A DNA stretch of 12,490 bases from a bacterium. GTDB lineage: Bacteria > SZUA-182 > DTGQ01. Positions 426 to 12,117 of this stretch are shown one piece after another. A program made the translations under genes and the position numbers. Below the pieces are notes generated by a model. That model saw only the letters and a list, made by a program, of their open reading frames with translations, was not told where the DNA came from and did no database searches. How positions within the stretch are numbered: the stretch's first letter is position 1; each line of letters opens with the position of its first letter. The DNA lies in the NCBI GenBank assembly GCA_040755755.1, contig JBFLZW010000074.1, positions 1 to 12,490 of the forward strand, given 5' to 3'.

Positions 426-3400
426 GAGAAGGGTGAAAATAACCATCACCCCCACCCAGCCTCCCCCCTCAAGGGGAATGGTCAACAGGATGAGCAGATC
501 ATCGTGCTCTCAGCCAGGAGTGAAGAAAGGCTCAAGGCTTATGCACAGCAGATGGTGGAATTCCTGAAAAGAGTTACTGCTCCAAGCCCGGCAGATGCTT
601 CTGCCTCAAGCCTGCCGGATATTCATGCAGCAAGCCTGCCGGGTGCTCGCCCTGATCCGATCAGCCTGACTGATCTTGCCTACGTCCTGCAAGTTGGGCG
701 AGAAGCTCTGGAGGAGCGATTGGCTCTGGTGGTGCCAGGCATACAGGAATTGATAGTGAAATTAACCCGATACTGCCAGGGGAGAAAGGATGAGGGTTTT
801 TATCAAGGGAATGTGAAGGCAAACAGGGCTAAATCCGAGCTTCTGGTTGCAGGAAAAGTAGGAAAGGAATTTATCAGGACCCTGGCACGGGAGAGAGAGC
901 TTGCCAGGTTAGCACATCTGTGGGTACTCGGAGTGGACATAGAATGGGAATTATTATACCAAAACTCCAGGCCAAGACGCATATCTGTGCCTACCTACCC
1001 TTTTGCCAGGGAAAGGCATTGGGTTACGGTATCATCAGTATCAAAGAGGGGCATCAACCCAGCCCTGGCGTACGTAAATCAGCATCAATTGGGCAGAGCA
1101 GACAGAGCCCCCGGTCAGGGCCAGGTTCCGGGGTTCCATTCTCTGATTGGCCTTCATCCTCTGATTGGCAGCAATACCTCGACCTTACGGGAGCAAAGGT
1201 TTTCGACCTGGCTGAGCGGAGACGAGTTTTTCCTGGCTGACCATGTGGTAGGTGAGCACAAGGTGCTGCCTGGCGTGGCTTATCTTGAGATGGCGCGGGC
1301 CGCAGGTGAGATCAGTGGAGAGAGAAAGGTCAGGGGGCTCAGGGATATTGTCTGGGCACAACCGGTCACGGTGGCCTCAGCCCCTCAACAGGTGCACATC
1401 AGCCTGTATCCGCAGCAGCAGGACAGGGTGGAGTTTGAGGTAAGTACCGCTGGCGAGAGCAACCGGCGGGTGGTGCACAGTCAGGGAAAGCTGGTCTATG
1501 ATGGCCAGGGCCTTGAAACTCCAACCAGGGCACAGCTCATCGATATTGAAGCCATCAAGACTCGATGCCGTGAGTTGAAAAGCGGCCGGGAATGCTATCA
1601 GGCATTTCAGAGCGGAGGGCTTAAGTACGGGCCGGGCTTTCAGACCATCAGGGAGCTTTTCTTCAATGGGAAAGAGGCCCTGGCACGCCTCGAGGTGCCG
1701 CAGAATCTTAAGGGCAGCATTCAGGAATTCGGGCTTCATCCTTCCCTGATGGACGGGGCATTGCAGACAGTGGCAGGACTTATGGCCAGCCAGTCCGAAG
1801 GTCAGGAAAAAAGCTCTGCCGATGCTCTCTATCTTCCCTTTGCCCTGGGAGAGGTGGAGATTATCAGCCCCCTGCTGCCTGAGACAGGCTATGCCTATGC
1901 AACTGTGGCCGATGATCAGTCAGGCAAAAGTCTTCCCTCTGCACGGTCCAGAGTCAAAAGGTTCAACATTCAGCTTGCAGATGAGACTGGCCAGGTGCTG
2001 GTAAGCATGAGGGACTTTTCAATCCGGGCACTCAGGCAGCCTCAAAAGAGCTCACCCCTTATCAGTGGAATCACCGAAGCGAATAAAGCTCAGACTGATA
2101 AGGTATTGGTCAGAGTAAAGGAACAGGAACTCAGGGCTGGTGAGCATGAGCTCGGAGCCGGTAGTGAACAGAAAGTCAAAGCAGATGCACAGGATTTGCG
2201 TCAAAGGATTCAAAAGGACCTGCTGAAGGCGGTCTCGGAGACTTTGAAGATCAAGGAAAAGGAGCTTGATCCGGATGAGGACCTGAGCGGGTATGGATTT
2301 GATTCCATCACCATAACTGAGTTCGCCAATCGGCTGAATGAGAAGTATAACCTTGAGATTACGCCCGTTGCCTTCTTTGATCATCCTTCTATTGGCTCAT
2401 TCGCTCAGTACTTGAGCCAGGAATATCGAGACAGACTCATTCCCTTTTATCAGGATAGCCTGAAGGTGACCAGGCAGCCTGCACTGAATGAGCCATCAGA
2501 GCCGGCAGAGGAGGTTTTTGAGGAGATCAGGCTGAAGCCCCGGTTCCAGAGCTTTGGTTATGAAGGGCCGCAGGCAGATGGAGCCATTCAATATGCCAGG
2601 AGTGAGCCGATAGCCATAGTTGGCATGGCCGGGGTGATGCCCCAGTCGGAAGACCTTGAGGTATTCTGGAAGCACCTTGAAGAGGGCCGGGACCTTATTA
2701 CCGAGATACCCAAAGATCGTTGGGATTGGCGCGTATGCTTTGGTAATCCGGCCAAAGAAGCCAATAAGACCAACATCAAGTGGGGCGGGTTCATGAAGGA
2801 AGTGGATAAATTCGATGCCGCCTTCTTTGGCATATCGCCCCGTGAGGCAGAGCTGATGGATCCCCAGCAGAGGCTTTTTTTGCAGACAGTATGGAAAACC
2901 ATCGAGGATGCAGGCTATAAGCCCTCCGATTTATCCGGCACCAAGACCGGCTTGTTTGTCGGGGTAGCCAGTTCAGATTATCAGGATATTTTACGCGCGC
3001 AGGGCATTACTATCGAAGCCTATACCTCAACCGGCATGGCCCACTCGATCCTGGCCAACCGCATCTCTTTCCTTCTCAATCTGCATGGGCCGAGCGAGCC
3101 GATCGATACTGCCTGCTCAAGCTCTCTGGTGGCAATCCACCGGGCTGTAGAGGCGATCCGGGCAGGGGATTGTGAGATGGCGATTGCCGGTGGAGTCAAT
3201 GTTATCCTGAGCCCGGCATTGTATATTTCTTTCAGCAAAGCAGGCATGTTGTGCGAGGATGGCCGGTGCAAGACCTTTGACAAGCGGGCTAATGGTTATG
3301 TCAGAGGTGAAGGGGTAGGAGCTATCCTGCTCAAGCCGTTAAGCAGGGCCAAATCAGAGGGGGACCACATCTATGCCCTGATCAGGGGAACAGCCGAAAA

Positions 3401-6400
3401 CCACGGGGGCCGGGCTAACTCCCTGACTGCCCCAAATCCCAGCGCCCAGGCTCAACTGCTGCTCAGGGCATACGAGAGGGCACAGCTCGATCCTGCTACA
3501 ATCAGTTATATCGAAACTCATGGAACCGGCACCAGCCTTGGAGATCCGATCGAGGTAGAGGGGTTAAAGAAAGCCTTTAAGGATCTGTCCGGAAGATGGG
3601 GCACAACCACTCTCAAAGAGCCCCTTTGTGGCCTTGGTACCGTAAAAACCAATATCGGCCACCTTGAGGCAGCAGCCGGAATAGCCGGTGTGATCAAAGT
3701 TCTCCTGGCCATGAAACACAAGAAACTTCCGGCCACGGTCCACTTTGAGGAGCTTAACCCTTACATCCAACTTGAGGACAGCCCCTTTTACATTGTCAAA
3801 GAAACCAGAGCATGGGAGCCTCTCAGAAGTGACGACAGCCGGATTATTCCACGTCGGGCAGGAGTCAGCTCCTTTGGCTTTGGAGGAGTCAATGCCCACA
3901 TCGTGCTTGAGGAATATGGAGAACCATGTCAGGAGCATGAAGAACCGGGGCTGCAGCTTAGCCCGCCAGTACAGGATGGGCAGCAGGAAGACCATATTGA
4001 CCATATTATTGTGCTCTCAGCCAAAAATGAAGAAAGGCTCAAGGTTTATGCTCACCAGATAGTTGAGCTCCTGGAAAAGACCACCCTGGTGAATTCTTCA
4101 TCCGCGCCGCAGGAAGAAGAACCGGCACGAAAAGCTCAGAAGGAGATTCAAGAGGAGTTACTCAGGCTTGTTTGCCAGAGGCTGAACGTTACAGAGAAGG
4201 ATATTGACCTGAAGGAGGACCTGGGTGAATATGGCCTCGATCCGGTCGGCTTGACCGAACTTGGCAATCATATTAATGAAAAATATAATCTTTGGATACC
4301 CCAGGCTATCCTCTTTGAACACCCGTCTCTTGAATCGCTGGTGCAATATGTATGGGAAGAGCAGAGAAGCAGTCTTATCCAGCATTACCCCTGCCCGCAC
4401 GAAGCGAAAAGAAGCCAGAGCCGGGAGGCTGTCAGTCTGGCTGATCTTGCCTATACCTTGCAGGTGGGCCGTGAGGCCATGGAAGAGCGGTTAGCTCTGA
4501 TAGTGTCGAGCCTCAAGGAATTGGAGGAGAAGCTCGTTCAATATTGCCAGGGATCAGAGGGAGAAGAGGTATATACCGGGAACGTGAAAGCAAACAAAGC
4601 GAAGCTCGGGCCTGTGCTCACCGGAAAAATCGGAGAGGAATTTGTTAAGACTGTTATTCAAAACAGGGAATTCAGCAAGTTAGCTCAACTATGGGTACTT
4701 GGAATGGAAATAGATTGGAGGCTGCTGCATCTCAATCGCACTCCGAGACGACTTGCTCTTCCTACCTATCCTTTTGCCCGGAAAAGGTGCTGGATACCTG
4801 CATCCGATAGGGGAATCAGTGCCATGATAATGAACGGTCAGGGTAAAGTGCTCAAGCATCATCCTCTGCTTGATCGCAATATTTCAACCTTACGGGAACA
4901 GAAATTTTCCACCCTGCTCATGGGAAATGAATTCTTCCTGGCTGATCGTATGGTTGAAGGGCAAAAGGTTTTACCGGAGCTGACTTACCTGGAGATGGCC
5001 CTGGCAGCGGGTGAGCTCAGTGCGGGCAGGAAGGTTCAAAGGCTGGAGAACATTGTCCTGGCAAGGCCGATCAGCATAGCCAGGGCTCCCCGGCAGGTTT
5101 ACACCAGCCTGTATCCGAAGCAGGGCTGGTTGGAGTACGAAGTGAGCACGCCCGATGGAGATAATCACGGGGATAAGCGAGGGAACAGGCAAGGCGATAA
5201 CCAGGGTAATAACCAAGATGATAATCAAAGAGTGGCACAGAGAGTAATACATAGCCAGGGGAGGTTGATCTTTCAGAGAAACGCTGGAAGCAAGGTCACG
5301 GATAACCGGACTGACGGCCAGGACGGGAAGGATGGGAGTAGTGAGGTTATCAATATTGAGGCTGTCCGGCAGCGATGTCAAAAGTCCTCAAGCGGTGAAG
5401 AGTGCTACCGGAGATTTCAGGGCGCGGGTTTGCACTATGGTTCAGGCTTTCAGGCCATTCAAGAGCTTTTTTATAACGGCAGCGAGGCCTTATCACGGAT
5501 TGAGTTGCCCGCAGAGATGAAAGATGGCTTCCAGGAATTCAAACTGCATCCTGTCCTGATGGATGGAGCGCTGCAAACAGTTATCTGGCTGATGCACAGC
5601 CAGGGAGCAGAACTCGATGACACCGCCTATTCCTATCTCCCCGTTGCCGTAAGGGAGGTGGAGATTATCAAACCCCTGTCAGCACGAGGATATGCTCATG
5701 TCACCTCGGCTGAGGACCAGCTTTCTGATGCGGGTCAGCGCCTGGCAAAATTCCCGATAAAGAGATTTACTATCCAACTGGGAGACGAGAAAGGCTGCGT
5801 TCTGGTAAGGATGAAGGATGTTTCCATAAAAGCACTCAGGCAGCCTTTAAATCTCAAAGCTCATCCCGGAGTGGTTCAACCTGATAGAGCCGGCATGATG
5901 TACTTTCGAAGTGTATGGGAGCGGTCAGTGGAGGGTGCTGAATCCTTCGAGACGGCTGCGGATGGCCAGGATGTATTGGCAGAAGGTGCCCTTTCAGGGC
6001 ATGTGCTGATCTTTGATACTAACAGGAATATCAGCGGGGATGGCACTGGAGATGCCACCGGGGATAGCAATGGGCAGATTGCTCAGACCCTCCAGGAGAG
6101 GATGACCACCAAGGGTGAGTGCGAGGCAAAGCTCATTGTGGTCAAGCCGGGACAGGAATACCGTGAGATTGATGAATTCGAGTATGAGATTAATCCCGGT
6201 CACCGGCAGGACTATTTCCGGCTAATCGGGACCCTGGCCAGCCGGCAGGCGCTGCCGGATACTGTTATTCACCTGTGGTCACTGTGCTCAAGAGGGGCAA
6301 TGGGGCCGATTGGGCCAATGGGGCTAACGAACTCAGGGAGTGATTACCCGGACAGTCTGAGTCTGGCCAGTCAACCCGATTTTAAAGCCCGGCTTGCTCT

Positions 6401-9400
6401 GGGGATGTATTCGATATGCTACCTCAGCCAGGCACTCACGGAGCGGGAGCAAAAGTCCAGGAGAAAACTCAGGCTGCTGTATGTCTATTCAAACTCAAAC
6501 GACCATCCACAGCCCCAGTATGCGGCTGTAAGTGGCCTGATCAAAACCATCCGCCTTGAAAATCCACGGTTCATCTATAAGGCGGTGGAAATAGAGGGGG
6601 CGGAGGAGGGTGAAAATACCCATCCCCCCAGCCCACACCAATCCAGGGAAGCTGCGTCAAAAATCCTCAGCATACTGCTGGCTGAGCTTCGCACCGGGCG
6701 TGAGGCCGAGGTTGAGGTCCGCTATGAGGGAGGACAAAGGTTTGTCAGACGCTGGCAGGAGATTGATTTCGCACGCGAGGCCGATAAGGCCCCCCAGGAC
6801 GATACCGATAAATCCACCCGGGACCATACACCAACTCTGCTCAGAGAGCATGGCGTGTATGTGATCACCGGGGGGCTGGGCGGGCTTGGGCTCATCTTTG
6901 CCCGGTATCTGGCCAGGCAGGTGAAGGCAAAACTTGTACTGGCAGGCCGCTCTGATCTGAGTGCCAGGGGGCAGGATAAAATCACCGGGCTGGAATCCCT
7001 GGGGACTGAGGTAGTCTATGTCAAAGCTGACATAACCAGCAAAGAGCGGGTCCAGGAGCTTATAGCCAAAGCCAGGCAGCGCTTTGGCAGGATACACGGG
7101 GTGATACACAGCGCCGGGGTAGTCAGGGATGCACTCCTGTCCAAAAAAGCACCGGAGGACATGGAACAGGTCCTGGCTCCCAAGGTATATGGCACCCTGT
7201 ATCTGGATGAGGCCACCCGTGATGAGCGGCTTGACTTTTTTATCCTGTTCTCATCACTGGCAGCCGTGACCGGCAACATTGGGCAGGCGGATTATGCCTA
7301 TGCCAACAGCTTCATGGATAATTTCGCCGCCTGGCGGGAAGGGCTGCGCGCCAGGCATGAGCGCTCTGGCAGGAGCCTGTCCATCGACTGGCCGCTGTGG
7401 CAGGAAGGCGGCATGAAGGTAAATGAGCAGACGGAAATTTTCCTCGCCAGGACCCTTGGCGTGAAAACCCTGAGAACAGAAGCAGGCCTTGCGGCTTTCG
7501 CCAGAGGGCTGACTTTGCGTGACAACCAGTTTCTGGTGATAGAAGGAGATCGAAGCAAGGTAAAACGAGTACTTGGTATCAAAGAAGAGGATTCTCACGG
7601 TGATTCCCGGCAGGGACCCGGCGCTCGCTCAAACCCGGCAGGTAATGCCGGTAAGACCGGCCAGATTCAGTCGGCGGAGGAGCAGGGCCTGCGCCAGAAG
7701 ATCCAGGAGGAATTACTGAAAGCCATCTCAGGAGTCTTGAAGATCAGGGAGCAGGATATCGACCCCGATGACGACCTGAGCGGATATGGGTTCGATTCAA
7801 TTACACTCACTGAGTTCGTCAATCAATTGAACGAAAAGTTTGGCATCACGCTTACACCGGTCGTTTTCTTTGAGCATCCCTCTATCAGCTCCTTTGCCCG
7901 GTACTTATGCCAGGAGCATAAAGACAGGCTCATTTCATACTATCATGGTAGTTTAGGTGGAGATGAAGAAGTGGAAGGAAGAACTGCGGAGACCGACTTA
8001 ACCGGGGAAACCTTCGAGGATATTGAATTAAAGCCGAAATTCTGGAGCATGGAGATTGAAGAGGGGCAGAGCGGAGCCGCCCGGCTTTCCGATGAGCCGA
8101 TAGCCATCATTGGCATGGCCGGGATGATGCCCCAGTCAGAGGACCTTGATACCTTCTGGAAGCATCTGGAAGAGGGCCGGGACCTTATCACCGAGATTCC
8201 CAAAGATCGCTGGGATTGGCGTGCTTACTTTGGTGATCCGGCCAGGGAGGAGAATAAGACCAATATCAAATGGGGCGGGTTCATGAAAGAGGTGGATACA
8301 TTCGATGCCGCCTTTTTTGGCATATCGCCCCGTGAAGCGGAGCTGATGGACCCCCAGCAGAGGCTCTTCTTGCAGACAGTCTGGAAGACCATCGAGGATG
8401 CAGGCTATAAGCCCTCTGATTTATCCGGCACCAGTACCGGCTTGTTCGTCGGGGTAAATACTTCGGACTACCACGAACTTTTGAAGGATCGGGCCATCGC
8501 GACAGGGATCTATACCGCAACGGGAGTAGCCCACTCGATCCTGGCTAACCGCATATCGTATCTTCTCAATCTGCATGGACCGAGCGAGCCGATCGACGCT
8601 GCCTGCTCAAGCTCTCTGGTAGCCATTCACCGGGCTGTGGAGGCGATCCGGGCAGGAGATTGTGATATGGCCATTGCCGGTGGAGTCAATGTTATCCTGA
8701 GCCCGACCCTGTATATTTCTTTCAGCAAGGCAGGCATGCTGAGCGAGGATGGCCGGTGCAAGACCTTTGATAAACAGGCCAATGGTTATGTCAGAAGCGA
8801 GGGGGTCGGTGCCATCCTGCTCAAGCCCTTAACCCGGGCCGAAGCGGAAGGTGACCACATCTATGCCCTGATCAGGGGAACAGCGGAAAATCATGGCGGT
8901 CGGGCCAATTCCCTGTCTGCTCCCAATCCCGGAGCTCAGGCCAGGCTGCTGGTCAAAGCCCATGAAAAGGGCAGGATCGATCCTGCCACCGTCAGTTATA
9001 TCGAGGTCCACGGAACAGGCACCAGCATTGGAGATCCAATCGAGATCAACGGCATACGGAAAGCCTTTGAAGAACTGTACAGAAAGTGGGGAAAAGAGCC
9101 ACCCAAAGTGCCTCACTGCAGGCTTGGTACCGTGAAAACCAATATCGGCCATGCGGAGGCGGCATCCGGAATAGCAGGCGTGATTAAGGTGCTTCTGGCC
9201 ATGAAGCACAGGAAACTTCCCGCCACTATCCACTTGAAAGAGCTTAACCCCTATATTCAATTGCAGGGCACTCCGTTCTCTGTTGTCAGGGAACCAACAC
9301 CCTGGGAGCCTCTGAAGGATCATGACGGACAGATCATCCCACGGCGTGCGGGAGTAAATGCCTTTGGTTTTGGCGGGGTCAATGCATACGTTATACTTGA

Positions 9401-11196: not shown

Positions 11197-12117
11197 CTAA
11201 TCGTGGCCTGCACGGTTAACGGTGGCATGGACGATCCGGAAAAAATCATAGGCATGGCCGTGCAGGGTGCCATCGGAGCGGAGGAGATATCTTCCTTCCA
11301 AATCGTATGGGCCAAGGTCTGAAATAGTCTTCAGCCCCCTTTCCCGGAGAAATTGTTCCGTGCTGCCATCTTCGATCCCGAAAATCAGGGGTTCTCCAAT
11401 TGCAGCAGCGCAGATCTTTGTTGCCCTGGCCCCCCTGAAGGCCCTCCAATCACCCCGGATGAAAGATTGCAGTGCATAATCGAAGACAAGAGAGCTTCCT
11501 GGCAGGCAGTTATCGGTAACGAACTGTAATACCCTATCCACTGCCCCTTCGGAGATATAGTAACTGACCCCCTCCCAGATGAAGAAAGTCTTCAGGGTTG
11601 TCTTAAAACCTCCCCGAAGAAGCACTTCCTCCAGGGATTGAGAATTGAAATCAATGGGAACGAAAGTAACGTTTTCAGGGAGATGGCCGAAGAACTTGAG
11701 CAACTGGCTTTTCTTTTCCGCCTGGGTGCCGGGGAAATCTACTTCGAAAACAGGTACCCTGCCGAGCCGGCTGCAAAACCTGTATGCCCGGCTGTCATTT
11801 CCAGCCCCAAGGATTACCAGTTGTTCAACCCCTTCTTTCAGTACCTGAATCAAGAGTGAATCTATATGTTTGGTTCGGGCGATATGATAGCAATAAATAC
11901 CCGGACTGCCGATTTCCATTACCCGCCGGGTGATCCATCCAAGATGAAAGCATATACGCCACCACCGATTCAGGAACTGCCTGGCCAGATAGTCCGGATT
12001 ACGCACGCTTTCATCACGCTCACAGGCAGCTATCGCCCGCGCACAGGCCACGAGCTGTGCTGATTTTATTGCACGATCTAAAGACCGTCTGCGGATATTG
12101 CGGGGAATGATCTTCAT
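11197..12117 (-). CDS. SAM-dependent O-methyltransferase, PpM1/LCMT/TcmP-like family
   Basis: 306-residue class I SAM methyltransferase of the leucine carboxyl methyltransferase-like family, which includes TcmP-type polyketide O-methyltransferases. Motifs are VILGAGNDSRAYR (101-113, SAM-binding loop), VFEVDFP (123-129, acidic ribose contact), VPIDF (153-157) and FIWEGVSYYI (179-188, family EGVxxY signature). An IARTKHIDSLL helix (79-89) precedes motif I as is usual in the family, and length is normal. The ATG is supported by AGGGAG five bases upstream. It is transcribed towards the PKS on the opposite strand with a 31-base gap, so it is not in the PKS operon. Proximity makes O- or carboxyl-methylation of the polyketide plausible, but this family has many members outside such clusters. 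No signal peptide or membrane segment was seen; it is presumably cytosolic. Confidence 0.88.
   Translation of the reverse strand: MKIIPRNIRRRSLDRAIKSAQLVACARAIAACERDESVRNPDYLARQFLNRWWRICFHLGWITRRVMEIGSPGIYCYHIARTKHIDSLLIQVLKEGVEQLVILGAGNDSRAYRFCSRLGRVPVFEVDFPGTQAEKKSQLLKFFGHLPENVTFVPIDFNSQSLEEVLLRGGFKTTLKTFFIWEGVSYYISEGAVDRVLQFVTDNCLPGSSLVFDYALQSFIRGDWRAFRGARATKICAAAIGEPLIFGIEDGSTEQFLRERGLKTISDLGPYDLEGRYLLRSDGTLHGHAYDFFRIVHATVNRAGHD

Follow-up and report, generated by a model that had tools for sequence, protein, structure and literature searches.

A Ser-less acyl carrier protein-like domain nested in ketosynthase flanking subdomains of trans-AT polyketide synthases, with a probable non-carrier role

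In a trans-AT polyketide synthase (PKS), the flanking subdomain (FSD) of the ketosynthase KS2 is split by a domain that has the fold of an acyl carrier protein (ACP) but lacks the phosphopantetheine (Ppant) Ser, and that recurs at this one site across phyla as a coherent family under purifying selection. We consider it likely that this insert is one of a conserved family of pseudo-ACPs, ACP-fold domains without carrier function that reside in trans-AT KS flanking subdomains and have a structural or protein-contact role. The stretch of DNA analysed (the window, 12,490 nucleotides) corresponds to contig C74 in a draft genome of 5.26 Mb and carries the end of a multimodular trans-AT PKS, encoded as a single 3720-aa ORF in the order KS1 (partial)-DH-ACP1, KS2-DH-KR-ACP3, KS3-ACP4-alpha/beta hydrolase (Pfam, ORF translation). 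Its assignment as a trans-AT PKS follows from the absence of an AT domain from this ORF (Pfam) together with AT-ER type genes elsewhere in the genome, where discrete proteins of this type are encoded on PKS contigs C71 and C50. The features of the window that bear on the insert are:

2196..2438, forward strand: ACP1 (DSI, Ser present), the closest ordinary ACP within the window (blastp of ACP domains, alignment)
2604..3914, forward strand: KS2, catalytic C-H-H intact (DTACSSSL, HGTGT, NIGH; Pfam, alignment)
4002..4085, forward strand: N-terminal part of the flanking subdomain, strand HIIVLSAK plus helix RLKVYAHQIVELLEKTT (alignment A1 with seven other linkers; AlphaFold2 strand and helix at 468-499)
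4086..4130, forward strand: N-terminal tether of the insert (AlphaFold2 residues 501-504 at pLDDT <50; its final residues belong to helix I)
4131..4388, forward strand: Ser-less ACP-fold domain (pseudo-ACP, INS; PF00550, E=6e-15; pLDDT 91-97; ACP helices; 35/81 identities with ACP1)
4242..4244, forward strand: CCG (Pro) at the phosphopantetheine Ser position (sequence, Ser-column census)
4389..4433, forward strand: C-terminal tether, predicted flexible (AlphaFold2 residues 599-607 at pLDDT <50)
4434..4793, forward strand: C-terminal part of the flanking subdomain, SLADLAYTLQVGRE ... LPTYPFARKRCW (PF22336, alignment A1)
4938..4979, forward strand: DH2 motif LADRMVEGQKVLPE, catalytic His replaced by Arg (compared with DH1, LADHVVGEHKVLPG)
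6852..7406, forward strand: KR of the insert-bearing module (PF08659)

Pfam places the insert, in frame, as a PP-binding domain (PF00550) with one half of the RhiE-like KS linker (PF22336) on either side, and alignments A1 and A3 locate its insertion site in the flanking subdomain after the LSAK helix and before the LADLAYTLQ helix. An earlier, sequence-only reading of this DNA had proposed just such an ACP-like domain splitting the KS2 linker, with the Ppant Ser replaced by Pro (CCG), and on both points it was correct. Its gap-free alignment with ACP1 over 81 residues also stands, although the 37 identities that it counted by hand come to 35 on recounting; with ACP3, the insert shares 32. Insert and ACP1 agree at 142 of 243 nucleotides (0.62, 0.75 and 0.38 by codon position), and with third codon positions only 38% alike, a recent duplication of the local ACP is rejected. 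The insert is missing from the seven other aligned linkers of the window's genome, LD1 and LD3 included; the loop had been called short in these two, but that of LD1 is moderately long, without a domain. Within this LD1 loop (HHPHPASPLKG), window positions 444-476 hold, in frame, a dispersed repeat of about 33 bases, CATCACCCCCACCCAGCCTCCCCCCTCAAGGGG, which has 45 copies in the genome at ≤3 mismatches (vs. 0 for a reversed control), several of them in PKS coding loops. An assembly error, which the sequence-only reading had considered as an explanation of the insert, is ruled out by the identical arrangement at the identical site in dozens of unrelated genomes.

The AlphaFold2 model of KS2 with its flanking subdomain (a 736-aa construct, 50 sequences) has a mean pLDDT of 90, with values of 91-97 across the insert and below 50 in the tether stretches on both sides. 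The insert is modelled with ACP helices at construct residues 506-528, 541-544, 548-562, 568-573 and 577-587, and the helical part spans residues 506-592, or about 4116-4379 of the window. This prediction, in which the insert folds as an ACP, supports a domain that would project from the flanking subdomain on flexible tethers. L115, a distant family member, is likewise predicted to adopt an ACP fold, and its model superimposes on free-standing ACPs (AntF, AcpM and others) with TM scores of 0.80-0.84 over 70-76 residues and rmsd of 1.4-1.6 Å (Foldseek). Among the solved KS structures matched by sequence or fold search, trans-AT KSs included, none has such an insert. Pfam recognises a PP-binding domain in all 27 of 27 family members, and annotation tools that call such matches ACPs could miscount the carriers of insert-bearing modules.

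The sequence-only reading had treated the insert as a feature of one KS, but it proves to be a widespread domain family. Scanning genome contigs with the window protein alone returned nothing; with linker alignment A1 as query, the scan returned many loci in which the match runs through the insert, and uniqueness to the window's genome is thereby rejected. After domain annotation of these loci with models built in this analysis, an insert was present at the same site in 47 of the 235 non-redundant KSs with a full linker, a fraction that does not measure prevalence, since the loci were picked by similarity to an insert-containing query. Insert-bearing KSs occur in Pseudomonadota (among the recorded hosts are Parabeggiatoa, Methylobacter, Methylovulum, Paraburkholderia and Breoghania), Desulfobacterota (Desulfobacteraceae), Bacillota (Paenibacillus, Brevibacillus, Tumebacillus, Desulfosporosinus and Desulfocucumis), Chloroflexota (an Anaerolineae MAG) and Aminicenantes (a MAG). 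There are up to five inserts per genome, and only a minority of the KSs in each assembly line carry one. Among the relatives of three carrier genomes, searched with strict thresholds, the insert was found in 7/119, 1/118 and 3/115 genomes (the carrier counted in each).

Loss of the Ppant Ser is a property of the family: this residue is absent from 46 of 48 aligned inserts but present in 256 of 259 ordinary ACPs of the same loci, which supports a non-carrier role, in line with the non-catalytic one that had been suggested for the window's copy. The Ser column of the inserts holds Pro in 23, Ala in 7, Thr in 6, Leu in 3, Gln and Ser in 2 each, and Gly, His, Lys, Glu and Tyr in 1 each; the two with Ser are L108, whose locus is broken into many short frames, and G147_889 of Paenibacillus harenae. 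The Gly before helix II (0.92), an Asp/Glu (0.96) and the hydrophobic core positions are kept. The helix III signature T-L-F-F-E-Y is lost family-wide (from ACPs to inserts, T54 falls from.68 to.16, F57 from.73 to below the top three and Y59 from.68 to.15), and the window insert still has ILFEHPS there. The inserts are like the PF00550 ACPs of type I PKSs in fold, in the core of helices I and II and in the G-[FL]-D turn before helix II, and unlike them in lacking the Ppant Ser (46/48) and, as a family, the helix III signature and in being sited inside another domain rather than between domains. The host linker, the flanking subdomain with the LINKS motifs of trans-AT KSs, keeps both halves intact and its LPTYPFx5W end, and differs from the usual PF22336 by an extra domain of about 85 residues in the loop that joins its first helix to its second. 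In the literature searched, where specialist papers on trans-AT KS structures were thinly covered and may hold an earlier mention, we found no published description of such a domain.

Even with the Ser column masked, profiles of inserts and ACPs separate with an AUC of 0.995 (five-fold cross-validation, folds split by genome). When held out, the window insert scores +2.5 bits toward the insert model, vs. -10.6 to -19.1 for the window's ACPs. We also weighed whether local ACPs had been captured many times independently into the same loop, as might be read from the scatter of inserts over the KS tree and from the window insert being slightly more similar to its own ACP1 (43.8%) than to its nearest counterpart among the other inserts (43.4%). 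The majority of inserts, however, show no close similarity to ACPs from their own line; the insert model outscores the ACP model for 46 of 48 held-out inserts, that of the window among them, and a tree in which all 48 form one clade is 24 lnL units better than the free quick tree (p-AU 0.82), such that we regard repeated capture as quite improbable. A single origin of the inserts is compatible with the data, for which 71 columns are insufficient as proof. Outside KS linkers, four Paenibacillus loci (L091, L092, L104 and L117) contain ACP-like domains that are likewise Ser-less and insert-like by profile, placed right after a KR and before a true ACP or an MT.

A search of 145 relatives yielded no close ortholog of the window gene, and dN/dS was therefore taken from other lineages. 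For the insert it is 0.28 (bootstrap 0.11-0.63) in a Methylobacter ortholog pair and 0.25 (0.10-0.71) in a Paenibacillus ortholog pair, vs. 0.05 and 0.06, respectively, for the KS; a third comparison, inside a Paenibacillus trio, gives 0.46 (0.17-1.31), with the closest pair too close to judge. The insert is therefore under purifying selection, but this constraint is modest: its dN/dS exceeds that of the host KS and, where compared, is at least that of the upstream ACP. Such relaxation relative to the KS might be expected of an inert relic, the copy of an ACP that landed in a permissive surface loop, lost its Ser and is merely tolerated, the alternative raised by the sequence-only reading; the variable tethers, the absence of the insert from most homologous KSs and its scatter across the KS tree can be read in the same way. 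Inserts from good assemblies show no frameshifts, however, the bootstrap upper bounds stay below 1 in two independent ortholog pairs, and one coherent family retains its fold core at deep divergence across several phyla, all of which make an inert relic improbable. The insert is probably a working structural or docking part and not a relic.

Inserts are scattered over both the KS tree, on which their presence requires 35 changes (shuffled labels: mean 43, lowest 35), and the tree of the C-terminal half of the linker, with 31 changes (shuffled lowest 37); they follow the linker slightly more closely than the KS. Pairwise distances between inserts correlate with those of the linker at 0.39 vs. 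0.31 for the KS, and at 0.28 vs. 0.10 among divergent KSs. These results fit exchange near the KS/linker boundary, a site of recombination according to work on trans-AT PKSs (PMC11260071, PMC7930024), although the scatter could also come from repeated loss. The pseudo-ACP may thus have spread among KSs by recombination near this boundary, partly along with the linker, or have been lost many times. At the same junction between KS and flanking subdomain, L087 (ORF 897-6074) has a methyltransferase domain, in the order KS-MT-linker.

The KSs that carry inserts have an intact catalytic C-H-H triad in 28 of 30 cases, and they mostly follow dehydrating modules: a DH is present in the upstream module of 39 of 44 insert-bearing KSs and of 85 of 130 others (p=0.0035, uncorrected for relatedness, locus choice and several comparisons, in a set of loci chosen by similarity to the insert and with related KSs that are not independent). 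In the same KSs, composition of the downstream module does not differ with and without the insert. The window follows this pattern, its KS2 being preceded by a KS-DH-ACP module, and the insert-bearing module itself probably acts as a KR-only module, because the catalytic His of DH2 is replaced by Arg. A strict link with two successive dehydrating modules, and hence with dienoyl substrates as macrolactin suggested, is not general (14/29 vs. 36/85); the weaker link, of the insert with an upstream DH only, stands.

Two inserts lie in one PKS cluster of Bacillus velezensis pDMB05-1, which we identify as that of macrolactin from the order and sizes of its genes, from the pdh genes next to it and from the split of KS and KR between MlnD and MlnE that has been described for this line (PMC9113145). 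This PKS resembles that of the window in having the insert at the same site with Pro at the Ser position, a KR-only module after it and dehydrating modules before it, and unlike the latter it is a characterised assembly line. We take its insert-bearing KSs to be the C-terminal KS of MlnD and the KS of MlnG, and presume from colinearity with the known structure that both would receive dienoyl chains and start KR-only modules. None of the accounts of the macrolactin line that we read mentions the insert. The end of the flanking subdomain is used as an engineering fusion site, and a conserved extra domain in the tractable Bacillus macrolactin line offers a direct way to test what this subdomain does. 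Its function in trans-AT PKSs has been described as unclear (PMC11260071).

Because the Ser is missing, the insert is predicted not to be phosphopantetheinylatable, from which we infer that it is tethered to the flank of the KS as a structural or protein-contact element. There, the pseudo-ACP would most likely make contacts within or between assembly lines that aid the KS in receiving or retaining the chain from a dehydrating module. No surface patch is clearly conserved across the insert family, and therefore no common partner is visible. A more specific and speculative version, which we hold to be rather unlikely, is that the pseudo-ACP docked on the KS flank controls when the KS accepts an enoyl or dienoyl chain from the dehydrating module, and moves between lines as a cassette.

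An ACP fold close to the KS might instead mimic an ACP to recruit a trans-acting enzyme (AT, ER or oxygenase) to the module; trans-AT PKSs need such recruitment, and in gladiolin the ACP is a key determinant of trans-ER recruitment (PMC10921412). For the trans-AT specifically, one of the docking partners named in the sequence-only reading, such a role is weakly supported and less likely: the trans-AT must load every module of a line, yet the majority of modules in these lines do without the insert. The insert-bearing modules of macrolactin are, by colinearity, not enoyl-reduced, and the family as a whole has lost the helix III signature seen in working ACPs; we rate recruitment of any of these enzymes as improbable. 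Lateral contact between neighbouring assembly lines, with the insert supplementing the LINKS region of the trans-AT flanking subdomain, is conceivable but doubtful: in known systems, KSs touch laterally and form filaments through the flanking subdomain (PMC11907408, PMC11260071), and the insert is predicted to project from it on flexible tethers, but a zipper built on a flexible tether would be unusual. Linkers that carry the insert and linkers that lack it do not differ in the length of their C-terminal region; the insert therefore does not replace the LINKS region, and replacement is rejected. As a tethered structural or contact domain, the pseudo-ACP would clearly exemplify an ACP that was converted to a non-carrier part and has been retained in several phyla.

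Positions 1-100 of the window and three further PKS contigs of its genome (C71, C62 and C75 of G000) begin or end in a common repeated KS stretch, ATVSYIETHGTGTSLGDPIEING; this near-identical KS DNA at the contig ends indicates that the PKS cluster is broken there. Downstream of the PKS, on the opposite strand (11197-12117), the window encodes a SAM-dependent methyltransferase of the TIGR00027 family (E=8e-58). On contig C50, a frame of locus L041 (6902-9715) starts as a KR-ACP-reductase and ends as a GMC-type oxidoreductase; it resembles two separate genes in the relative G003 (L043), and the frame is possibly a fusion or an assembly join.
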